Positions 3,953 through 20,944 of a stretch of DNA of 21,630 nucleotides are shown here, one piece after another (position 1 is the first letter of the stretch; every line of letters begins with the position of its first letter). Source of the DNA: a virus. Location of the stretch: IMG/VR virus record IMGVR_UViG_3300037119_008262, positions 1 through 21,630 of that record. One strand, written 5' to 3'. Below the pieces are notes generated by a model. That model was not told the origin of the DNA and made no database searches. It worked only from the letters and a program-made list of their open reading frames with translations. The translations under genes were made by a program, and so were the position numbers.

Positions 3953-4549
3953 ATGGAATGCAATTCATGCTTTCAGGATTATTTAGCCAAATGTAACCTG
4001 GCAATTCAGGTTTACGCCCAATTGGCGCCTCTTTCTGACTACAGGTGGATCATTACCGACAAGTTCGGGAATAAATATCAAGGTGAATTCACCACTGACG
4101 CCAATGGTTTCTGGGTAATACCAGTTGACGAGTTGCCGAGTGGATTACTTACCCAGTATTCCGGCGAATTCACGCTTCAGGTGCAGGATGCAGGATGTAA
4201 GCCGGTTAAGTTCAAGGCGGCCCAGGAATATGATTGCATTAGCTTCACCGTCAAAGGAGGCACATACGAGAAAGATACGATCGGTTGCGACTTCAGTTGT
4301 ACGCCGGCGGCTGGCAGTCAAACTCAATTATTTCCATTTATAAACGATGACGAGATAACGATACCATGGACTTCCGGGTTATTGACCTCATTTGGAAATA
4401 ACCCCGTGATCCAGGTTTTTCATTTAGTATCCGGCACAACCTATCAATTGGTTGATGTGGCAATTCAGGAGGTGTTTACTGATGGAGTTCTTACTTCGAT
4501 TATCGTATCAAATGCTGGTCCTGCGGATGGCTATATCTTGGTATCATGA
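3953..4549 (+). CDS. Probable virion protein: Ig-like N-terminus plus shared C-terminal beta module
   Basis: A 198-residue protein in two parts. Residues 1-115 look like an Ig-like beta-sandwich (DYRWIITDKFGNKYQGEF, then DANGFWVIPVDELP) with seven cysteines including the N-terminal CNSC and a closing CDFSC. Residues 120-198 (LFPFINDDEITIPWTSGLL through AGPADGYILVS) match the module that forms the whole of the next protein and the C-terminus of the protein at 12362-13111. A 45-base gap precedes the gene. Cysteine content and position between terminase and tail genes suggest an exposed structural protein, decoration or major tail component. The exact role is unknown. Confidence 0.7.
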   Translation: MECNSCFQDYLAKCNLAIQVYAQLAPLSDYRWIITDKFGNKYQGEFTTDANGFWVIPVDELPSGLLTQYSGEFTLQVQDAGCKPVKFKAAQEYDCISFTVKGGTYEKDTIGCDFSCTPAAGSQTQLFPFINDDEITIPWTSGLLTSFGNNPVIQVFHLVSGTTYQLVDVAIQEVFTDGVLTSIIVSNAGPADGYILVS

Positions 4550-5089: not shown

Positions 5090-5454
5090 GTGATTCAAAA
5101 ACATCATCTGGCGGCGTTGGCTTTGCCGGTCTTTTAACAATCGCCTTCATTGTATTGAAATTATGCAAGGTCATTGACTGGTCATGGTGGTGGGTAATAA
5201 GTCCGATATTAATCAGTATTGGGTTATGCTTATTGTTGTTAGGCGGTGTTATTATTTATGATTTATGGGCATCTTATAGACGAAAGATATATTTTGAAAA
5301 ACGCATCGAACACCACAAATCGACTACAAACGAATTGCGGGATAGATACAATGATCTTACAAAAAACGTAAGCGAAGGGATTAACGCACATAGCAAATGG
5401 CAAGAACGATTAGACGAAATGCGTAAACAACAAGCCAAAGGAAAAGTCAATTGA
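5086..5454 (+). CDS. Membrane protein, transmembrane fragile-X-F-like, 122 aa
   Basis: Two closely spaced membrane segments are visible, at about residues 10-30 and 33-60, joined by the short aromatic turn DWSWWW. They are followed by a basic residue cluster (SYRRK) and a hydrophilic, probably coiled-coil tail (residues 65-122). The pattern GFxGLLTxxFIVLKL followed by VIDWSWWWV is the one usually annotated as transmembrane fragile-X-F protein in phages. Role unknown; holin, superinfection exclusion or membrane anchoring are all possible. It starts in an ATGA overlap, and its stop overlaps a TTG start. Confidence 0.7.
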   Translation: MSDSKTSSGGVGFAGLLTIAFIVLKLCKVIDWSWWWVISPILISIGLCLLLLGGVIIYDLWASYRRKIYFEKRIEHHKSTTNELRDRYNDLTKNVSEGINAHSKWQERLDEMRKQQAKGKVN

Positions 5455-5768
5455 TCACCCAAATCATCATAATCGCCCTACTCGTTTTGTCCATCCATTA
5501 CACGATGCAGCCAGATGAGATATTCGGTAAGCTCGGCGATTGGCTGGAAGATCATTTGCCTGATGTTATTCACCCGGCCGTATTCGCGTGTAACGTTTGC
5601 ATGGCGCCGCATTACGGAGGTATTCTTTACTGGCTGATCCCATGGCACCATGAACTATGGCAATGGCCGGTTGTGGTTGTCGGGGCGATGGGGGCGAATA
5701 TAATTGTAAACAAATGGAGCCATGAAAAATGTGAAACCAAGAAAGATGCTGAAGCGAAAAAAGAATGA
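5451..5768 (+). CDS. Small membrane protein with CxxC motif, 105 aa
   Basis: The TTG start at 5451 overlaps the preceding TGA by three bases. Residues 2-17 form a hydrophobic N-terminal anchor, and residues 71-88 form a second hydrophobic segment. Between them is a CNVCMAPHYGG motif (Cys47, Cys50) followed by WLIPWHHELWQW, where histidines and cysteines could bind a metal or form a disulfide. The C-terminus is highly charged (KKDAEAKKE). Small membrane proteins with this CxxCMAP signature recur in Bacteroidota phages as I recall, but their function is not known to me. Confidence 0.65.
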   Translation: MITQIIIIALLVLSIHYTMQPDEIFGKLGDWLEDHLPDVIHPAVFACNVCMAPHYGGILYWLIPWHHELWQWPVVVVGAMGANIIVNKWSHEKCETKKDAEAKKE

Positions 5769-5775
5769 GGGGATA

Positions 5776-5895
5776 ATGGCTTATTTCGATAGGTGGTCAA
5801 AGCAACCAATTGATATAACCAGCCCAGCGCCTACGGGGGTCGGGCCTATAGTTATTTCATCGAGACTTTACCAAAAGATCAAAGAACTTAAATGA
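5776..5895 (+). CDS. Small ORF, 39 aa
   Basis: ATG 5776 to TGA 5893-5895 encodes 39 residues, starting MAYFDRWSKQPIDIT and ending YQKIKELK. Support comes from a purine-rich GAGGGG just upstream (5767-5772), a spacing of 7 bases after the previous stop, and an ATGA overlap with the next gene at 5892. It fills what would otherwise be a 120-base hole in a gene train with almost no gaps. The function is unknown; it could be a small virion or membrane-proximal peptide. Confidence 0.55.
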   Translation: MAYFDRWSKQPIDITSPAPTGVGPIVISSRLYQKIKELK

Positions 5896-6119
5896 GCTAT
5901 GAACAAACCATATCATCATTCGGCTTCTATCCATCCGGTGCATGTGATTGCGGCGGTGTCAGAAACGACAAATACCGAAACGGCCCGTATTTAATCTATA
6001 TCCGCAAAACGAAGAATCAATTTAAAATAAAACGGAAGAACGAAGTGGTTGTTCCTTTAAAAAGTTTGGATGAATTGGAGAAAGCTCTTCAGGAAACGTT
6101 TCCGCAGCCGGTTGCTTGA
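5892..6119 (+). CDS. Hypothetical protein, 75 aa
   Basis: A 75-residue basic protein with a CDCGG motif near the N-terminus (Cys18, Cys20), a Lys/Arg-rich centre (IYIRKTKNQFKIKRKNE), and a short C-terminal helix (LKSLDELEKALQETF). The start overlaps the 39-residue gene as ATGA. It precedes the tail chaperone genes. The family is not recognised. The basic centre would suit nucleic acid or virion contacts, but this is only inference. Confidence 0.6.
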   Translation: MSYEQTISSFGFYPSGACDCGGVRNDKYRNGPYLIYIRKTKNQFKIKRKNEVVVPLKSLDELEKALQETFPQPVA

Positions 6120-6132
6120 TGGTCGTTATAAA

Positions 6133-6651
6133 ATGGTTGAAGCATTTCAATTAGGCGGCACGACTTATTACATGTTTGATCAAACGGCTGAAGTACCGAC
6201 CGGGCGCATGCTGGCGGCATTAGCGGTGTATGCTGAGATGGAAATGAAGGTTGATAAAGCATACCTGGAACTGCACACAAAGGCCATGGAGAAGCTACTG
6301 AGCGATCCGAAGAAGATCAGTATTATGTATATCGCTCAGTTAAACCTGAACCTTAAGGAGCGCCTGGAGCTTATGCCGTTACCGGACTTCGTTTATAAGC
6401 TGGCCAGTGTAATATTTTTTGACAACACCGAAAGCCCGTATTCATATTCATTTGATTATAATAAGAAGAAGATTGAGCAGTGGAAGAAGTCTGGCGACAC
6501 TCTGGATTTTTTTTTGAGCAGGCTGTCCAGCGAATTGATACCGTCCTTAATGCCTGCTACCGGAAACACAAAAATGTTTTTTCAGGTAGCCGAGCAGGTC
6601 GCCGGAATACACCTAACCGATCTTACAAAAATATTGTCAGCAAATCAGTAG
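6133..6651 (+). CDS. Tail assembly chaperone (gpG-like), 172 aa
   Basis: This is probably the short form of the tail assembly chaperone that coats the tape measure during tail building. The inference rests on position (directly before a tape measure gene), size, a helical C-terminal half, and the overlapping second frame that follows, as in lambda G/GT. The ATG at 6133 is preferred; a longer in-frame start at 6070 would lie deep inside the previous gene. Residues 1-60 contain GGTTYYMFDQ and a long helix, and residues 75-105 contain LNLNLKERLELMPLPDFVYKL. A nine-T run interrupts the frame at 6507-6515. I recognise no strong sequence signature of the family. Confidence 0.7.
   Translation: MVEAFQLGGTTYYMFDQTAEVPTGRMLAALAVYAEMEMKVDKAYLELHTKAMEKLLSDPKKISIMYIAQLNLNLKERLELMPLPDFVYKLASVIFFDNTESPYSYSFDYNKKKIEQWKKSGDTLDFFLSRLSSELIPSLMPATGNTKMFFQVAEQVAGIHLTDLTKILSANQ
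6507..6516 (+). promoter_or_regulatory. Candidate -1 ribosomal frameshift slippery site
   Basis: Nine T residues followed by G. In the chaperone frame the codons are GAT TTT TTT TTG, so both T-TTT-TTT and T-TTT-TTG are ideal X-XXY-YYZ heptamers for a -1 slip. The site falls inside the only interval (6477-6651) where the two frames overlap. Confidence 0.65.
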
Positions 6652-6818
6652 ATGATCATACCGAGCAGATCCATTGGCTTGCTGATTTTAATCCTTCCCT
6701 AATCGATGCGTACAACCGCATGCCACTTACTGAGTATTACCAAATACTTGATTCAAAACTAGCTTCCCTCAAAAAGCAAATTAAAGAAAGTGGCAGAAAC
6801 ACAGCAGGTCATCATTGA
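6516..6818 (+). CDS. Frameshift extension of the tail chaperone (gpT-like part)
   Basis: This reading frame, -1 to the chaperone gene, is open only from 6477 to 6818 and has no convincing ATG start. Its last third (DDHTEQIHWLADFNPSLIDA, MPLTEYYQILDSKLASLKKQ) looks strongly protein-like and is covered by no other gene. Slippage on the T run would join 128 residues of the chaperone to about 100 residues here, giving a 228-residue fusion. Its end overlaps the tape measure start by 29 bases. The alternative is a sequencing error in the homopolymer, but both frames look coding after the run. Confidence 0.65.
   Translation, partial: EQAVQRIDTVLNACYRKHKNVFSGSRAGRRNTPNRSYKNIVSKSVDDHTEQIHWLADFNPSLIDAYNRMPLTEYYQILDSKLASLKKQIKESGRNTAGHH
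6517..6558 (+). promoter_or_regulatory. Candidate stimulatory hairpin after the slippery site
   Basis: AGCAGGC at 6517-6523 is perfectly complementary to GCCTGCT at 6552-6558, giving a 7-bp GC-rich stem with a 28-base loop. It begins directly after the slippery run. The spacing is shorter than the usual 5-9 bases, and the loop is long, so the pairing may be incidental or part of a larger fold. Confidence 0.4.
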
Positions 6819-9780
6819 GTTCGTAACGGACGATGCGCAGTTGGATACGGCTATTAATAAGCTGGAAAAGACAGGCGCTGTCGATAGTAAACTCGCGTCT
6901 GCATTCAAACAAACTAATGCTGAAATAAGTAAACAGTCAGCTGAAATAAAAAAGGCTGCATCGTCAACCGCGCCATTAAAAAAGAACCTGGAAGATGTTG
7001 ACAAGGCGACTAAAAAGTTTACCCAGGATTTCATGACCGGCTTTAATGAAGGCGTTTTAGAAACGCTGAAAGAGGCCGGAGTAGGCGCGGAAGAATTTGC
7101 TGCGGCGCTGGGTAGCGGTCAAACGGAGGTAGAAAAATCTTCGGATAGCCTGCGTCAGCGACTAAAGATCCTTACTGAGCAGATAACGGCGATGAAGTTG
7201 GCTGGCGAGGATGGTACTGAAGCATTCAAGGCCTTGGTTGTCGAAGCGGGTAATATAAAGGATGCAATGGGCGATGCTGGGGCTGAAATAAAAAACGCCG
7301 CAGCTAATAGCCAGACGCTAGACGGTCTTATTGGGGCGGCCCAGGCGGTGGCCGGTGGGTTCGCGGTGGCGCAGGGAGCAGCTGCGCTGTTTGGTGATGA
7401 GAACGAAGATCTGCAAAAAACACTCCTTAAGGTAAATGCAGTCATGGCGATACTGCAAGGATTGCAAACCGTAGGCAATGCCCTTCAAAAAGAGAGTGCG
7501 GTTGTCCAATTATTCAGCAACAAACAAAAGATAATAGCCAACGCGCAATTGGCAGTTGAAAACGGATTACAATCTACAAGTATTGTAGTTAGGCTAGGGG
7601 CGGCTATCGCCCAAAGAATCTTAAACGCCGCAATGGCCGCAAACCCTATCCTGCTGTTTATATCCGCTTTAATCTTGGTTGTAACAGCAATGGCTGCTTA
7701 TATAAAAAGCAGCAAAGAGGCAGAAATACAAACAGGTGACTTAAATGCAGCAGTAGAGGCGGCCACAGAAGGTTTTGAAAACTATGCACGCCAGGTTAAA
7801 TTAAGGAGCGACGAGGCGACGTCTGAACTTGAAAAAAATGGGGCATTACAATCTCAAATACTCGAAGGCCAACTAAATGCAGAAAAAGACATTGATGCAA
7901 AAAGAAGGCAAGAAATAGCCCGTTTGCGGAAGTTTTTAACAACTTCAAGGGATGCAGACGAGGAAGCGATAAAGGCCGCCAATGAGCGCCTTAAGCAGTT
8001 AGCGCAAGATAGCGCAGAGGCCGATGTAAAAATAAAAACAGAACAAAACGGCTTAACCAGACAACTCCGCGAAGAAGATATCAAGGGTCAAATTGCTGCC
8101 GCTGAAACTGCATTGCTGGCAGCTAAGGAAGGAAGCCAAAAGCAATTACAATTGCAAAAGAGATTAGTAAGCCTGGGAGCGCAGGGGGAAATAAACGCCG
8201 CAGGGCTAACAGAGGCGGAGAAAACAAACATTGCAGCCAAAGCCATTAAAGAACGGAGCGAGCTTGATGCGGCTGCTGCAAAACGCGATATTGATTTGCA
8301 ACTTAAAAAGATCGATGATCAGCTTATAAACATTAAGGAAGGGTCACAAGAGGAATTGAATCTGAAAAAACAACAAATTGACCTTCAGGCTCAATCAGAA
8401 TTAACCAGCACTAAACTAAGCGAAGACGAGAAGGCAGAAATAATTAAGAATGCCTTTGAAAAGAAGTTCAAACTTCAGCAAGACTATAACAAACGCGTAG
8501 AACGAGAAGCTATCGAGGCTCAAATAAACATTAACACTGCCGAGCTATCACAAATCAAGACAAATAGCGACAATAGGCTTATCCTTCAGATAGCGAATAT
8601 TGAGCTTGCGGCTGCTGCAGAAGTCAATGCCGCAGAAGGAAATTCCGCAAAGATCAAAGAAATAAACGCCAAACGTGATGCCGATATTTTAGCCGTTAGA
8701 AAGCAATTTATCGAAGACGCTGCGCAGTATGAAATAGATATTCGTACTGCCGACAACGGACCGTCTAACCGAATGCTTCAAAGGACAATTAGCGACGAAA
8801 GGAAATCATTGGAAGTTAGAAAGGCCGCTATTCGACAACTAGCAGCCGAGCAAATCAAAGACGTTGACACAAGGCTGAAAGCATTGCAGGACGAAAAAGA
8901 TCAACGACTAATAAGCGAGGAAGACTACAATTTAAAATACAAGCAGCTTTCTGACAAAAGAAAAGAAATCAATGAAAAAACAGAGGAGGACATAACGGCA
9001 AAAACAAAAGAAGAGAGTAAGTTAAGAGAGGAAGTTGCTTTTGCTGCATTATATGCAATAGCCACGGTTATTTCAGGCATAAATGATAATCAAACAGAAA
9101 GCGAGAATCAGCGAATTGAAGGCGAAAAGAAAAGGGTTGCGGATCTTTTAGAAGCCGGTGCCATTACCGAAAAGGAAGCCAAAGCGAGAAATAAAAGATT
9201 AGATATTGAAGAAAGAAAATTAAAACGCGAGCAAGCCCAACGCGAAAAGAATCTGGCAATATTCAATGCGGTAATAAACACCGCCTCAGCAATAACAAAA
9301 GCACTGGCAAGCGCCCCGCCACCTTACAATGCAATACTGGCCGGCATTTCTGCAGCGCTTGGTCTCGCACAAATTGCCATTATCAACAACCGCCCGTTAC
9401 CCAAATTTGCCAAAGGTAAAAAAGATCGATATGAAGGCCCCGGTGAAATCGGTGAGGCCGGTATGGAGTTAATGCAACATGACGGGCAATTGTACCTTGC
9501 CAAAAAGAGAACGCTGGTATGGCTGGGTAAGGATGATAAGGTATATAACCCGACAGAGACTAAGGAAATGCTGATGCCGACAGTAGACAGGCAATTGATG
9601 CAGTGGCAAGCACCGGTGCAAAAACAGCCAGATGCAAAAGAAATAGCATCGGAATTGGTAAAGGCGCTTAAGAAGATGCCAGGTACTAACGTAAACATAG
9701 ATGAACATGGGCTTAAGATATGGGTACAGGAGGGTCAAAGCCGTAACAACTACATGGATAAAAGATATAGTAGCAAATAA
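6790..9780 (+). CDS. Tail tape measure protein, 996 aa
   Basis: This protein sets tail length and is ejected with the DNA. It starts at a GTG. Residues 1-280 are helical with Gly/Ala-rich segments (NSQTLDGLIGAAQAVAGGFA near 175-195). A strongly hydrophobic segment at 281-305 (MAANPILLFISALILVV) is typical of tape measures. Residues 310-830 form a very long charged coiled coil rich in Glu, Lys and Gln. A second hydrophobic stretch lies near 833-870, followed by a Bacteroidota-type C-terminal cap (RPLPKFAKGKK, GPGEIGEAGMELM). At about 1.5 angstrom per residue, 996 residues suggest a tail near 150 nm. No lysozyme or peptidase domain was seen. Confidence 0.92.
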   Translation: MAETQQVIIEFVTDDAQLDTAINKLEKTGAVDSKLASAFKQTNAEISKQSAEIKKAASSTAPLKKNLEDVDKATKKFTQDFMTGFNEGVLETLKEAGVGAEEFAAALGSGQTEVEKSSDSLRQRLKILTEQITAMKLAGEDGTEAFKALVVEAGNIKDAMGDAGAEIKNAAANSQTLDGLIGAAQAVAGGFAVAQGAAALFGDENEDLQKTLLKVNAVMAILQGLQTVGNALQKESAVVQLFSNKQKIIANAQLAVENGLQSTSIVVRLGAAIAQRILNAAMAANPILLFISALILVVTAMAAYIKSSKEAEIQTGDLNAAVEAATEGFENYARQVKLRSDEATSELEKNGALQSQILEGQLNAEKDIDAKRRQEIARLRKFLTTSRDADEEAIKAANERLKQLAQDSAEADVKIKTEQNGLTRQLREEDIKGQIAAAETALLAAKEGSQKQLQLQKRLVSLGAQGEINAAGLTEAEKTNIAAKAIKERSELDAAAAKRDIDLQLKKIDDQLINIKEGSQEELNLKKQQIDLQAQSELTSTKLSEDEKAEIIKNAFEKKFKLQQDYNKRVEREAIEAQININTAELSQIKTNSDNRLILQIANIELAAAAEVNAAEGNSAKIKEINAKRDADILAVRKQFIEDAAQYEIDIRTADNGPSNRMLQRTISDERKSLEVRKAAIRQLAAEQIKDVDTRLKALQDEKDQRLISEEDYNLKYKQLSDKRKEINEKTEEDITAKTKEESKLREEVAFAALYAIATVISGINDNQTESENQRIEGEKKRVADLLEAGAITEKEAKARNKRLDIEERKLKREQAQREKNLAIFNAVINTASAITKALASAPPPYNAILAGISAALGLAQIAIINNRPLPKFAKGKKDRYEGPGEIGEAGMELMQHDGQLYLAKKRTLVWLGKDDKVYNPTETKEMLMPTVDRQLMQWQAPVQKQPDAKEIASELVKALKKMPGTNVNIDEHGLKIWVQEGQSRNNYMDKRYSSK

Positions 9781-13154: not shown

Positions 13155-14324
13155 ATGTCTTTTAAGAATAGAATCAGATTGCCCTTCTACGTCACACGCC
13201 CCCAATATCCGCGTGAGGCGAACGTATTTCGTCGGGCCGATGGTTCAACGAAGGTGCAATCGGTTATAATTCGTAAAGTATTTGAGGGCGAAACCGATAA
13301 CCTGCCTAAAGAAATTCACGAGCGCTTGATAATAGCATTATCGCATGACGACGTTACCATCGAAGGCAGGTATTTATCAACCGGTGTTTCATTGGAGGGT
13401 AATGATTACGATATAGAATGGACTAAATTCCTGGATTTCCCACTGGCAAAAGCCGCATTCAAGGTTCAGGTGACGCCTTTCAATTACTCAAATGATAACT
13501 GTCAAACCTGCGAGGAATTATCGCAAGTTGTATGCGTTGATGATAACATTGGAACTATCGATGAAGATGAAACGGTAAGCGTACCGGTGTTGGATAATGA
13601 TTCGATATGCTGTAGCCCGGTTGTTATTTCATTAGTCTCCTTTAATACAACATATTTAGATAGCTGCATTATATCCGGTAGTGATATAATTATCCACGCC
13701 AAACCACTACTTTCCGATGCAAATAGTATTGTACTGGCAACGTATCGCGCTCGGTGCCCGAACGGGTCATACGATGAGGCAAATATCATCGGCGATATAA
13801 ACGGGACTGACCCGACGCCGACCTGTTTGGCGCCCCTTGATCCTATATTAGTTTCACTGGACAGCGACACGAGTGCATCATTTAGCTGGACGGCGCCGTC
13901 TCCTGCGCCCGCGTGTGGGTATCATTGGGAGGTACGGCGACCTGTTACCGGCGAGGTTATTGCAAGTGGGGATGCGGCAGGCGTATCTGTTGCTGTAACA
14001 GGACTACCAAGTAATGAGAACTTTTTAAGATTCTATGTTCGCAGCAATTGCTGTAGTCTGGATAGCAATTATGCGGGACCGGTAATTTTTAGTCTGCCAC
14101 CTCCGAGCGATACGGAAGCTTGCGGAAATTATCAAATAGACAACACCCATTTCCTTTTATACGGCACTGCAACATATTTAGACTGCAATGGAGTTGAGCA
14201 AAATGTAATAGTGCCGGCCAGTCAAACGAGATTCATTTGTGCTTTACAATCAAGCCCTGGCGTTCCGGTTGAAATATCAACAAGCGGCGGGAATTTGATC
14301 ATTACATATACAGGCTTATGCTAA
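13155..14324 (+). CDS. Tail fibre-like protein with Ig-like and fibronectin type III domains
   Basis: A 389-residue protein in four parts. Residues 1-120 form an N-terminal beta domain that probably docks to the tail. Residues about 128-215 resemble a bacterial Ig-like domain (DNIGTIDEDETVSVPVLDND). Residues about 221-313 form an FN3 domain (SFSWTAPSPAPACGYHWEV; VTGLPSNENFLRFYVRSNCC). Residues 320-389 form a Thr/Ile-rich cap ending in Cys. It has 15 cysteines, unusual for a phage fibre. FN3 and Ig-like domains on phage tails commonly bind cell-surface sugars. The adjacent glycosyltransferase at 14318 overlaps it by 7 bases and could modify it. Receptor binding is inferred. Confidence 0.7.
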   Translation: MSFKNRIRLPFYVTRPQYPREANVFRRADGSTKVQSVIIRKVFEGETDNLPKEIHERLIIALSHDDVTIEGRYLSTGVSLEGNDYDIEWTKFLDFPLAKAAFKVQVTPFNYSNDNCQTCEELSQVVCVDDNIGTIDEDETVSVPVLDNDSICCSPVVISLVSFNTTYLDSCIISGSDIIIHAKPLLSDANSIVLATYRARCPNGSYDEANIIGDINGTDPTPTCLAPLDPILVSLDSDTSASFSWTAPSPAPACGYHWEVRRPVTGEVIASGDAAGVSVAVTGLPSNENFLRFYVRSNCCSLDSNYAGPVIFSLPPPSDTEACGNYQIDNTHFLLYGTATYLDCNGVEQNVIVPASQTRFICALQSSPGVPVEISTSGGNLIITYTGLC

Positions 14325-15193
14325 ACAAACGCGGGATCTTACTGCTGGCTACCGGGCATCCGTACTACGGTAGAATGGCCTACTGTCTGGCAATGTCAAT
14401 AAAAGCGATTGACCCCGATTTTCCTATCTGCATTATTCATAGCGAAAATTCACTGAATCATTTGAGCGTCCATCAACGAAGATTTTTCGATGAAATGATT
14501 TTATTGCCAGAGGCGAAGGTGAAAGGCTTTGCGTGTAAGCTTCATTTGGACGAATTGAGCCCGTTCGAGGAAACGCTTTTCCTCGATGCGGACATGGCGT
14601 GGTTACCAAAGCGCGGGCCTGGGCAATTAATGGATGAGCTTTCGACCTTTGAGTATACGGGTATAACAGAAGGCCATTATAATATTAACACTAACGACCG
14701 GTCCGAGATCAGCAAGAAATATTATTTCTGGGCCGATGTAGATGAGATTGTGAAAAAGTATGAATTGAATGGGAAAATTTATCAGTGGCGTAGCGAGGTG
14801 ATTTATTTCAAAAAGACCGAAAAGGTTAAACAGTTCTTTGCCGATGCGAGGAAGATCAACACCAGTCATGGGCTAAAAAGCATAATTATGTTTGGCGACC
14901 AGGTGCCCGACGAGCTGGGTATTAATATCAGCGCTGCTATTCACGGCATTGAGCCCCACCAATACAAGTGGATACCGGCCTTATGGCCGCGACTCCATGG
15001 GAACAACACAACCTGTTTCGAGGAAATATATAACCGGTATTACTTGCTGAGCTGCGGGAGTAATTATGCAACGGGCGATATTAAAAAACTTTACGACAGG
15101 GTTATTAAATGCGCGGCAAATAAGTTTCAGACTCAACATGTTTTCCCGCTGATCGATAAAAAATCATTTATACCAGATAGACAAAAAATGTAA
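14318..15193 (+). CDS. GT-A type glycosyltransferase (GT8-like), 291 aa
   Basis: A probable nucleotide-sugar transferase. The N-terminus GILLLATGHPYYGRMAYCLA followed by DPDFPICIIHS resembles the sugar-nucleotide-binding strand of GT8-like enzymes. ETLFLDADMAWL carries the DxD metal motif at residues 90-92, preceded by a conserved-type Lys/Leu helix (KLHLDELSP). A second half with HGLKSIIMFGDQ and PRLHGN fits the acceptor side. It has no membrane anchor or signal peptide. It lies inside the structural operon between a fibre-like gene and the portal, overlapping the former by 7 bases. Virion protein glycosylation is the obvious idea; modification of host surface sugars is the alternative. The sugar cannot be read from sequence. 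Confidence 0.7.
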   Translation: MLNKRGILLLATGHPYYGRMAYCLAMSIKAIDPDFPICIIHSENSLNHLSVHQRRFFDEMILLPEAKVKGFACKLHLDELSPFEETLFLDADMAWLPKRGPGQLMDELSTFEYTGITEGHYNINTNDRSEISKKYYFWADVDEIVKKYELNGKIYQWRSEVIYFKKTEKVKQFFADARKINTSHGLKSIIMFGDQVPDELGINISAAIHGIEPHQYKWIPALWPRLHGNNTTCFEEIYNRYYLLSCGSNYATGDIKKLYDRVIKCAANKFQTQHVFPLIDKKSFIPDRQKM

Positions 15194-15195
15194 GT

Positions 15196-17151
15196 ATGGC
15201 CTACGAATTACCATCATACGATACACTGAAGCCTTATTTTGTTGATAAGCAAACCCATTATTATTATGATAAGGCGAATAAAAATTGTAAGGATTTTGAG
15301 CCGCATTCGGAAGGGACATACCCGACCGAATTGATAGAATGTCGGCGGCCCAATGAGCCGTTAGAGGTGCAGGAGTATCGTAAAAAGATTTGGGTACCTA
15401 AGACTCAGCCAACATTTGAAAGGGTACTGGCTAGTCTTGGATCAATCAGGCGTAGTGCCGATTGGTCTATTAAATATCCGGAACTCGGGGTGTTTACACT
15501 TATTCGTGAGGGCCAAACGCTTGAAGATTATTGTGAAACGGATTTCCCTTACTTCGGATCGATAACCAACTGGATATTTTCAGTTGCGTTAAAAAGATAT
15601 CTTACTGATTCGAATGGCGTTGTGTTAATTATGCCACTTGAAAATGAAATCGATGAGACTGATTTCCTTCAACCTTATCCTGTACTATTCGACTGCTGCG
15701 ACGTTGTTATGTTCAACCATGGCGAAAACGCTTTACTCAATAACCCATTGGGTTGCATGTATGTAACGAAGAAGGGCGCCATGGAAAAGGGTAAATCATT
15801 CTATTACGTGGATGCATTTGCGATAACTAAATATAACCAGGTAGACGCAAAAGGCACAATGATCCCAGATAAGCCATACGTACATGGGCTGGACATGATG
15901 CCATGCTTCAAGATGGGGGGCATCGTCTGCGAAACCGAAGGCCATAATTTCCTTTTCAAAAGTCGAATAGCTGGCATGTTGCCAGAATTGGATGAAGCGG
16001 TGCGTGAATATAGTGACCTGCAGGCGGCTAAGGTGCTGCATGTGTACCCTGAGCCATGGGAATTCACGCAGCATGAGTGCGCGACCTGTAAAGGAACTGG
16101 GCAAAGGAGAAACCCTTCATGGACTGAAGGCTGCGGACTGCCCACCCATTTACCATGCGATAATACAGGATGTAGTAATGGTTATATCGCTACGGGCCCT
16201 TATTCGAAACTATTGATCAGGCCAACTTCTGCATTAGAGGGTGGCGGCAGCATCCCCAATCCGCCAAAAGGTTATGTGATAAAGGACATTGCAATCGTTA
16301 AGTTGATGGAGGATAGCGTTCGTCAGCACATTTACGATGGGCTTGCGGCTATCAATTTTCAGGAGTTAGCTGAAGTACCACTGGCGCAATCGGGTGTAGC
16401 CAAAACAGTTGATCGAGATCAGCAGAATAATACCATACATGCTATTGCAGAGGACCTGGTTAAAATAATGGATAGCACGTATAAGATAACGGCATATTAC
16501 CGGTACAAAAACGTTTACTCGTTTGAGGAAATTGATAAAATGCTACCCAAAATACCGGTGCCCGAAAAGTACGACCTGTTTTCCATCACCGATATGCAGA
16601 CCGAATTAAATTCAGCCAAAACCGGGAAAACAAATCCAGTGATCGTAAACGCCATGGAAATTGATTACGCAAGCAAGAGATTCAATACTGATGAATCAGT
16701 GCGCGACCTGGTTTCCCTTACTTTGAAGCTCGACCCTCTGCCAAATATCAGCGAAGATGAAAAGATGGCCAGGCTGTCAAACAAAGGCATATTGCAGGAA
16801 ACATATATCGTGAGTAGTAACATTGGCGAGTTCGTTCAGCGGGCGCTGGATGAAGATCCTGATTTTGCCGGCAAGCCATTGAAGGATCAGAAGGTGAAGC
16901 TGCTTGCGTACGCAAAGGAGATTACGGCTTTGCTTGATTCGGCAAAGGCTATAATTGCGGATACGGTAATTGAAGATGACGCGAATCAGGGGGGGGCAAA
17001 TAATGCAGATACAGATCAAATCGGTAAGCTTCCTTTGGCAATACAACAGTTATCTTTAGCGGCGACAAGAGCGGTTGAAGCTGGCAAGCCTGATTTGGCT
17101 GCACGATTGAACAAAAAAATTGATGAACTTTTAATGTCAGTAGGTGTATGA
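15196..17151 (+). CDS. Phage portal protein with zinc-finger-like insert, 651 aa
   Basis: This should be the dodecameric ring at the head vertex through which DNA passes. The assignment rests on length, the C-terminal half (LAQSGVAKTVDRDQQNNTI and the following helices resemble the portal stem and crown), and the minor head gene immediately downstream. Residues 295-302 (CATCKGTG) plus Cys313, Cys321 and Cys326 (CDNTGCSNGY) form a DnaJ-like cysteine cluster in the middle, a probable structural zinc site. The C-terminus is a helical tail (LSLAATRAVEAGKPDLAARL). It starts 2 bases after the glycosyltransferase stop and ends in an ATGA overlap with a tiny ORF. No other portal candidate is visible. 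Confidence 0.65.
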   Translation: MAYELPSYDTLKPYFVDKQTHYYYDKANKNCKDFEPHSEGTYPTELIECRRPNEPLEVQEYRKKIWVPKTQPTFERVLASLGSIRRSADWSIKYPELGVFTLIREGQTLEDYCETDFPYFGSITNWIFSVALKRYLTDSNGVVLIMPLENEIDETDFLQPYPVLFDCCDVVMFNHGENALLNNPLGCMYVTKKGAMEKGKSFYYVDAFAITKYNQVDAKGTMIPDKPYVHGLDMMPCFKMGGIVCETEGHNFLFKSRIAGMLPELDEAVREYSDLQAAKVLHVYPEPWEFTQHECATCKGTGQRRNPSWTEGCGLPTHLPCDNTGCSNGYIATGPYSKLLIRPTSALEGGGSIPNPPKGYVIKDIAIVKLMEDSVRQHIYDGLAAINFQELAEVPLAQSGVAKTVDRDQQNNTIHAIAEDLVKIMDSTYKITAYYRYKNVYSFEEIDKMLPKIPVPEKYDLFSITDMQTELNSAKTGKTNPVIVNAMEIDYASKRFNTDESVRDLVSLTLKLDPLPNISEDEKMARLSNKGILQETYIVSSNIGEFVQRALDEDPDFAGKPLKDQKVKLLAYAKEITALLDSAKAIIADTVIEDDANQGGANNADTDQIGKLPLAIQQLSLAATRAVEAGKPDLAARLNKKIDELLMSVGV

Positions 17152-18864: not shown

Positions 18865-19485
18865 TTAAATATCAACTGTTATAATCCTACCCTGGGGAAT
18901 TGGCCGATTGCCTACAATGGAATATTGGCAATTATTTAACCCATCATCAGGCTGCCGGGGTTGCTTCGCTTGTTCCATTTTGACGGGATCGTAACCGGTA
19001 GGGTGATCTTTTGGATGGGGGAGGGAAAGGTAGCGGTGTTCGCGGGTGGTGATCTGCAGTCCGGCGGATAATACGGTGTAATACAATGAGTCATCTTCGC
19101 CGCCCCAACCGCTGAACTGGTTACTATAACCGTTTATCTTTTCGAAATCTGACCGGTTAAAGGCAACCACGCCACCGAAATACTTATCATGTGGCATCTT
19201 CCATCCGAATTGGCTGGCATGGGTCGCTAGGTGAGTAGGATGCTCGGGATGGGAGTAATCCGCTTTACCCTGGACCAGCATATCCACATCATGGAAAATA
19301 CAGTAATCGGCTTTTGATTGCAGGGCGCCAATATTCTTAATCAGCCCCCGGTTGAAAGGTTTGTGTATCGATTGCTCAATGATCAGAAATTCGGCTTTCG
19401 GTAGTCGCGGCCGGTAATGCTGAAGGAATTTGGCGAGATGGGAGGCTCGGTTACGGTAAGGAATAATTATAGACAATTTACTCAT
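18865..19485 (-). CDS. Beta-1,4-galactosyltransferase-like glycosyltransferase (GT7), 206 aa
   Basis: The sequence follows the beta4GalT pattern in order. SIIIPYRNRASHLAKFLQHY (residues 5-24) matches the IPFRNR region. KPFNRGLIKNIGALQS follows, then the metal motif HDVDM (65-69), KYFGGVVAFNRSDFEKINGY (101-120), and GWGGEDD (126-132), the donor/acceptor loop. The Trp usually before this loop is replaced by Ser125. Histidines in the HPKDHPTGYDP region may complete the metal site. At 206 residues it is just the catalytic core, without a membrane anchor. Start chosen at 19485 (MSKLSIII), overlapping the upstream stop by 8 bases; a longer start at 19527 is less likely. A galactose or related sugar transfer is expected but not proven. 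Confidence 0.82.
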   Translation of the reverse strand: MSKLSIIIPYRNRASHLAKFLQHYRPRLPKAEFLIIEQSIHKPFNRGLIKNIGALQSKADYCIFHDVDMLVQGKADYSHPEHPTHLATHASQFGWKMPHDKYFGGVVAFNRSDFEKINGYSNQFSGWGGEDDSLYYTVLSAGLQITTREHRYLSLPHPKDHPTGYDPVKMEQAKQPRQPDDGLNNCQYSIVGNRPIPQGRIITVDI

Positions 19486-19843
19486 ACAACCATTTATGTA
19501 GTTTTTCAAAAAGCGATTCGGCCTCACTCTCTCTTTTAAAATAAACCTTTATATCATTATTAAATCCGCTAACCATAATATATACCGCCCACTTTTTGGT
19601 ATCTTTTAAGAAGTCTTTTTCAATACCAGATATGGCTGTTTTCGCTGCAATACATCTGAATGAGTTAAAATTGTTTTGCCATCCTAAGCTCTCGTCTTTA
19701 TCATCAACCGGTTCGTCGGCATAAAACTTTGCAGTATATACTACGCTGTTATCGCGCAGTTCTATAGACAATTCTATGAAATCAGTTATCTTCTGTTGAG
19801 AAAGGCTGAGTTGCGGGATATCTATTTTTTCAATGATGGTCAT
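19478..19843 (-). CDS. Hypothetical protein, 121 aa
   Basis: A 121-residue acidic alpha/beta protein without signal peptide or membrane segments. It starts with strand-like segments (MTIIEKIDIPQLSL), then FIELSIELRDNSVVYTAKFY, and ends in a helix (SEAESLFEKLHKWLYE). It lies one base after the 84-residue gene and overlaps the GT7 gene, so it sits inside the glycosyltransferase cluster. Its AT content is higher than that of the flanking transferases. The family is not recognised. A partner or regulator of the transferases is possible only by association. Confidence 0.6.
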   Translation of the reverse strand: MTIIEKIDIPQLSLSQQKITDFIELSIELRDNSVVYTAKFYADEPVDDKDESLGWQNNFNSFRCIAAKTAISGIEKDFLKDTKKWAVYIMVSGFNNDIKVYFKRESEAESLFEKLHKWLYE

Positions 19844-19844
19844 T

Positions 19845-20099
19845 TTATTTCAGCCTCCATTTTAAAACATTTACGCTTTCCCTTAATTGAATTTCGCCAA
19901 GTTCTTTTTGCTCGTCAACCAAAGCGACGAGATAATAAAGCGTAATTCCATCTTTTTTACCTATCAATGGAACAACCCAGCAGTTTTCTTCAAATTTTAT
20001 ACCATCGGAAAGAGGAAAGTATTTTTTATGCAATTCATTTGCATTACCAGCCTCGTGCTGCTCGATAATAATACCGTCTTGATTATATACTATTTTCAT
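19845..20099 (-). CDS. Hypothetical protein, 84 aa
   Basis: An 84-residue beta-rich acidic protein with a single Cys and no signal peptide. It starts MKIVYNQDGIIIEQHEAG and ends LRESVNVLKWRLK. Its ATG overlaps the exostosin-like gene stop as ATGA, and the next gene starts one base after its own stop, so it is firmly within the operon. The function is unknown. Confidence 0.6.
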   Translation of the reverse strand: MKIVYNQDGIIIEQHEAGNANELHKKYFPLSDGIKFEENCWVVPLIGKKDGITLYYLVALVDEQKELGEIQLRESVNVLKWRLK

Positions 20100-20944
20100 T
20101 TGTTAACCTCCTGTAGTATTTTTTGTTTGCAACCCTGGTAGGTGTAGTATTGCCCTAACTCCTTCATAGCATCTAAATGGCCGTCTGGATCTCTCTGTTT
20201 TAAAAAACCATAAATATCACCACCCGGTTGAAGAAAAATACCAGGATATAATATGTTATACGGAAATACAAATTCGTCACTCACATACACCGGCACCGCC
20301 CCATAATGTATTGCCTCGGCTATCCTAAAGCTACTTTTCCCATACCCGCGCGGGCACAGCGCAAATACTGACCTTGCCAAAACATTACAGTACTCTTTCA
20401 GCGGCAATTTCTTTATCATCACCATGCAATCCTTTTTACCAGCAAACTGTTCAACCAATTGCCTCCGTATCGGATGCGTATCCCCGCCTACGAACGATGC
20501 GAATATATCCCGCTTGCAATCGAATTTATACCCATGTGGTTGACAAAGCAAGGGTATAGGGTAATCTATCCGGCCGCCAGACATACCGAACACAACGATA
20601 TCCAGGTCTTTAAAATCGACCATCGGGCCGTCATCGTATTGGCAAATGGTGAAGTATTTTTTATCGCGATCCAGGCTATCAATGAAGCGCTGCAAATTAT
20701 TCCGGCTCTTTTCTTTAACACCATACCCATTATTGCACCAGTAAGCCGTCCAGAAAATAGGCAGGTATGTTCTGCCGGTTATTTCATCGGGCTGAGTATT
20801 ATCGAAAAACCATCGCTCAAATTCATGCTTATTATCTTCAGGGTAAGGGTGTGTTTGCTTAACCCTGAATTCGATTGGGGTATATAAGAATTGTTTTGGC
20901 TTCTGCGGTATATGTGTTCGTGGGTATGATGTTCGTCTGATCAT
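20096..20944 (-). CDS. Exostosin-like glycosyltransferase (GT47), 282 aa
   Basis: The C-terminal half carries the exostosin signature: SVFALCPRGYGKSSFRIAEA at about 192-211, followed by IHYGAVPVYVSDE ending near residue 224, the GT-B nucleotide-sugar site of GT47 enzymes. Earlier parts fit as well: FTICQYDDGPMVDFKDLDIV and DIFASFVGG, which resembles the F-x-G turn before the donor domain. The protein lacks a membrane anchor and is shorter than eukaryotic exostosins, as in phage and bacterial forms. Its ATG overlaps the endonuclease stop (ATGA). Targets could be virion proteins, host capsule or lipopolysaccharide. Confidence 0.8.
   Translation of the reverse strand: MIRRTSYPRTHIPQKPKQFLYTPIEFRVKQTHPYPEDNKHEFERWFFDNTQPDEITGRTYLPIFWTAYWCNNGYGVKEKSRNNLQRFIDSLDRDKKYFTICQYDDGPMVDFKDLDIVVFGMSGGRIDYPIPLLCQPHGYKFDCKRDIFASFVGGDTHPIRRQLVEQFAGKKDCMVMIKKLPLKEYCNVLARSVFALCPRGYGKSSFRIAEAIHYGAVPVYVSDEFVFPYNILYPGIFLQPGGDIYGFLKQRDPDGHLDAMKELGQYYTYQGCKQKILQEVNK

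Follow-up and report, generated by a model that had tools for sequence, protein, structure and literature searches.

On the evidence of sequence comparison, the window (the whole stretch of DNA analysed, i.e. the 21,630 bases of virus record IMGVR_UViG_3300037119_008262 from IMG/VR) holds a programmed -1 frameshift site of G/GT type, which is conserved across an as yet undescribed family of phages. The site is ordinary in kind, and its particular features are a slippery run of eight or nine T residues (T8-T9) and a long overlap coding in two frames (Table 1). We hold a programmed -1 shift, be it ribosomal or transcriptional, to be very probable, and the narrower claim of a ribosomal shift together with a tail chaperone role to be rather probable. 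In the proposed mechanism, most ribosomes would read frame 0 and produce a G-like chaperone of 193 aa. A minority would move back by one base at the U run, the simplest route being a tandem slip by two tRNA-Phe at U UUU UUU, and carry on in the -1 frame, which would give a GT-like fusion ending just inside the tape measure gene. We infer from the patterns described below that slippage occurs, that the ribosome is its agent, how frequent it is and that the products are chaperones. If the lambda model applies, the tape measure protein would be coated by many copies of G and few of GT, which would bring in tail tube subunits and be absent from the finished tail.

Table 1. Features at and around the frameshift site, in window coordinates.
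Feature	Position	Strand	Basis
Frame-0 gene, predicted G-like tail assembly chaperone, 193 aa	6070..6651	+	ORF; kept in 18 contigs
T9 slippery run; heptamer T TTT TTT at 6507-6513	6507..6515	+	T9/T8, one phase, 19 records
-1 frame T-like extension (FFFEQAVQRID...)	6507..6818	+	coding to 6815, stop TGA 6816-6818; open in all relatives
Predicted GT-like fusion, 249 aa	6070..6818	+	inferred from sequence
Dual-coding overlap, closed by the frame-0 stop TAG 6649-6651	6516..6651	+	codon-position divergence
7-bp stem, arms 6517-6523 and 6552-6558, judged not functional	6517..6558	+	z-scores, 3-nt spacer
Tape measure protein gene	6790..9780	+	phrog_18891 tail length tape measure protein, E 5e-10

The frame-0 gene lies directly upstream of the tape measure ORF, whose weak matches point to phages of Bacteroidota. 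An earlier note on this DNA had placed the end of this gene at 6651 and described a -1 frame open between 6477 and 6818, with T9G read as GAT TTT TTT TTG in the overlap. ORF calls returned both coordinates, the -1 frame being open there from stop to stop, and the run is indeed T9 followed by G, in the frame-0 context GAT TTT TTT TTG AGC; it is the sole T run of at least 8 in the window. A tail tube gene was sought in three ORFs (3953-4549, 5451-5768 and 5892-6119), and these three gave no Pfam match. The gene order between 2068 and 17151 is unusual, with the terminase, then the tail genes and the tape measure, and only then the portal at 15196. The portal gene (15196-17151) has a G8 run close to its end (16989-16996); alignments of the portal to relatives stop near residue 598, and the window protein runs 53 residues further. 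One relative (L082) has G9 at this position and then a stop, and a different frame is open beyond it, so that the portal C-terminus is possibly length-variable or slippage-controlled, or an assembly artefact. The proteins encoded at 14318-15193, 18865-19527 and 20096-20944 resemble glycosyltransferases by eye and are candidates for this function.

Several rounds of searching in IMG/VR retrieved 18 related contigs, which make 19 records with the window and 15 lineages, window included, once near-identical ones are merged. No relatives of the family were found among 50,697 annotated phage records or in the bacterial genomes searched. The most distant contigs share 32-37% identity with the window protein in G and 19-27% in the T part. 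A number of observations suggest more than chance. First, it lies in an identical codon phase in all 19 records, as T9 in 16 and as T8 in three, the latter reading GAT TTT TTT TCA or GAT TTT TTT TCC. Second, its two Phe codons are always TTT (30/30, versus 39/89 where Phe is conserved elsewhere in the gene) and the Asp codon is always GAT (14/14, versus 61/79 elsewhere). Third, the 5' T (6507), which is the first base of the heptamer and could freely change to give GAC, is present in every lineage, and three lineages lack the 3' T (6515). Fourth, the -1 frame is open beyond the frame-0 stop in every record. With the frame-0 protein and its codon usage held fixed, a -1 frame open across the whole overlap would be expected with probability 0.08 in the window and 0.0015-0.09 per lineage, and all 15 are open; the lineages are related and these counts not fully independent, although close relatives still differ at 46% of third positions. 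The earlier note had proposed a gpG/gpGT-type frameshift pair, and had suggested homologue comparison as a check. The T run and both frames that follow it are kept in the 18 contigs, which together with the constant phase strongly supports this proposal. The three T8 records (L029, L030, L042) also have GGA GGT, a Shine-Dalgarno-like sequence, 8 nt 5' of the heptamer; it could be a stimulator or merely two Gly codons.

The overlap bears the mark of two coding frames. Among five close relatives, the differences per site at frame-0 positions 1, 2 and 3 are 0.075, 0.045 and 0.46 upstream of the run, 0.059, 0.111 and 0.152 in the overlap, and 0.067, 0.379 and 0.067 past the frame-0 stop, frame-0 position 2 being the third position of the -1 frame. 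Within the 133 nt of overlap in the window, neither frame's third position is thus free to vary. The last 45 codons of the frame-0 gene overlap the -1 frame, and this tail holds residues that are invariant across the family (L156, P158, L160 and L189); after the run, the overlap spans 131-202 nt across records. Codon-position divergence and invariant tail residues together suggest that selection acts both on the unshifted protein, 45-codon tail included, and on its shifted counterpart.

Which machine slips is less clear, because T8-T9 is a run length that these genomes avoid elsewhere. Ribosomal slippage and the insertion of one U by transcriptional slippage would give the identical fusion protein (DFFFEQAV). 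The earlier note assumed a ribosomal slip; its -1 shift stands, and it had left unconsidered a second route, in which RNA polymerase would insert one U (or remove two) at T8-T9 and thereby join the T ORF to G. We regard this route as possible but unlikely, and we favour the ribosome as an agent about twice as likely. An A/T run of about nine is present, as transcriptional slippage would need, and it comes with no detected RNA stimulator. Its length also falls exactly where such runs are depleted in genes: across 564 genes predicted in this family (the window and relatives L057-L085), A runs of at least 9 were seen 3 times for 19.7 expected and T runs of at least 9 once for 5.5 expected (the tail run being excluded from the observed count). 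Runs of 8 A or T are mildly depleted and runs of 7 about neutral, with no phase effect. In many bacteria, too, A/T runs begin to be selected against as slippage sites at nine (PMC1088944). Elsewhere in these genes, bare T TTT TTT and A AAA AAA heptamers in phase 2 are not clearly avoided, with 17 T7 for 21.6 expected and 43 A7 for 41.7 expected. This contrast with the depleted runs of at least 9 points, at least in part, to length-dependent slippage. Yet replication slippage can likewise deplete long runs, three records have T8 only, and the 5' T never varies, even though its loss would still leave T8. Beyond 7, the length of the run is accounted for by the third Phe codon alone, so we did not use this length as an argument for RNA polymerase. 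The constant 5' T and the loss of the 3' T in three lineages weakly suggest an X XXY YYZ register, and a T-run ribosomal frameshift has a precedent in P2 E/E' (PMC3931495), which supports the ribosomal reading. If RNA polymerase nevertheless set the chaperone ratio at T8-T9, this would be a new way to make a G/GT pair. The known cases of the lambda and P2 types are ribosomal, which argues further against it.

No stimulatory RNA structure was found downstream of the run from z-scores in the window and its relatives. The earlier note had pointed to a 7-bp stem right after the run as part of the signal. The stem does exist in the window, with arms AGCAGGC and GCCTGCT, but a role as stimulator is not borne out: its z-score of -1.4 is not above chance, the values are about 0 or positive in most relatives, it has no counterpart beyond the closest relatives and is not kept in distant ones, and only 3 nt separate it from the first heptamer. 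We therefore rejected it.

It is improbable, though less so than the readings that follow, that the frameshifted pair serves another role in the virion or its assembly than tail chaperoning. What leaves room for such a role is that neither G nor T matches any annotated chaperone family in Pfam or PHROGs, and that fold matches are weak. Neither a PDB sequence search nor Foldseek with models of the two proteins yielded a significant hit. In the model of G (pTM 0.52), helices come after a beta hairpin; that of T is helical. The fold matches of G are below the level of proof, but they include several tail assembly chaperones and, in the VIA-align rows, that of HK97 (2ob9; 98/107 residues, rmsd 4.3), where the match ends near the slip site, identity is 10%, and the Z of 3.7, weak alone, is in the range of chance. 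The position directly before the tape measure and the layout of a -1 pair also speak for chaperones.

The fusion protein would probably start at ATG 6070, which is conserved in close relatives, and count 249 aa, i.e. 148 frame-0 codons followed by 101 -1 codons from base 6513. The earlier note's fusion of 228 residues requires ATG 6133, which is not conserved, and we have replaced it. Its remark that the -1 frame has no convincing start holds: in 8 of the 19 records (4 lineages) a stop directly 5' of the run closes this frame, which must then begin at the run itself. These stops make it very improbable that the -1 ORF is an independent gene overlapping the upstream one and starting at GTG 6480. 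In several lineages a GTG, ATG or TTG does occur in the -1 frame 27 nt 5' of the run, but in the window this GTG is made of the last base of the preceding codon and part of an invariant TGG (Trp) codon (NTG G), of which it is a by-product and not a conserved start. Moreover, four records (L040, L037, L035 and L048) have no start at that place, the eight stops lie between the candidate start and the run, distant relatives lack the internal ATG 6720, and a separate gene would leave the conserved T run unexplained. That a sequencing or assembly error split one continuous gene is ruled out for practical purposes, since a T9 homopolymer is error-prone in principle but all 19 records, which come from a wide range of metagenomes, tell the same story, three of them with T8C in matching phase, and the frame-0 tail and its stop are themselves conserved.

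These results add a tail-chaperone frameshift family for which no kin was found among the annotated phage records, and in which a T run and two overlapping reading frames were kept over large divergence. Standard gene calling that takes no account of frameshifts would cut the fusion protein in two or miss it. The T8/T9 series offers material to tell ribosomal from transcriptional slippage.

A -1 slip before the tape measure is a known trick of long-tailed phages, and in lambda the slippery sequence is GGGAAAG, unlike the T8-T9 run of the window family. The lambda tail assembly chaperones G and GT are made by -1 ribosomal frameshifting (PMC5009743). The window family resembles them in the gene order before the tape measure, a -1 extension without its own start, an in-phase slippery heptamer and two C-terminal variants, and differs in having no detected sequence similarity to annotated chaperone families. 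It differs also in its overlap, which at 131-202 nt far exceeds the averages of 26-36 nt after the slip site in the PRFect data sets (PMC10885494) and gives G a conserved tail of its own, some 45 codons long or longer. The earlier note considered a run of pure T uncommon, a view corrected by the runs of P2 E/E' (T6G) and Smp131 orf27/27.1 (T7G, T7C) (PMC3931495). These lie at the same place in the tail operon, but in P2-like myophages of Proteobacteria, with a shorter run and a short overlap (37 nt in P2); when family profiles were compared, the window proteins had no Pfam or PHROG match pointing to homology with P2 E/E'. Porphyromonas gingivalis phages (L014:3783-4555, L049-L051) also carry T6G ahead of the tape measure gene, read GGG GAT TTT TTG as in phage005, and their -1 frame stays open as far as that gene. 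The annotated record of such a phage gives the -1 part as small hypothetical ORFs, this part matches the C-terminal half of PHROG 11996, and metagenomic relatives of the protein (L053:3480-3870) have GAT TTT ATG at the slip position and a conserved -1 frame. Homology between this chaperone and the window family was rejected (hhalign probability 0.2%). Finally, genes of IS elements undergo transcriptional slippage on A9/T9 (PMC1088944) and are like the window family in run length and in the way a fusion would arise; there it is RNA polymerase that slips, which for the window family is the less favoured reading.
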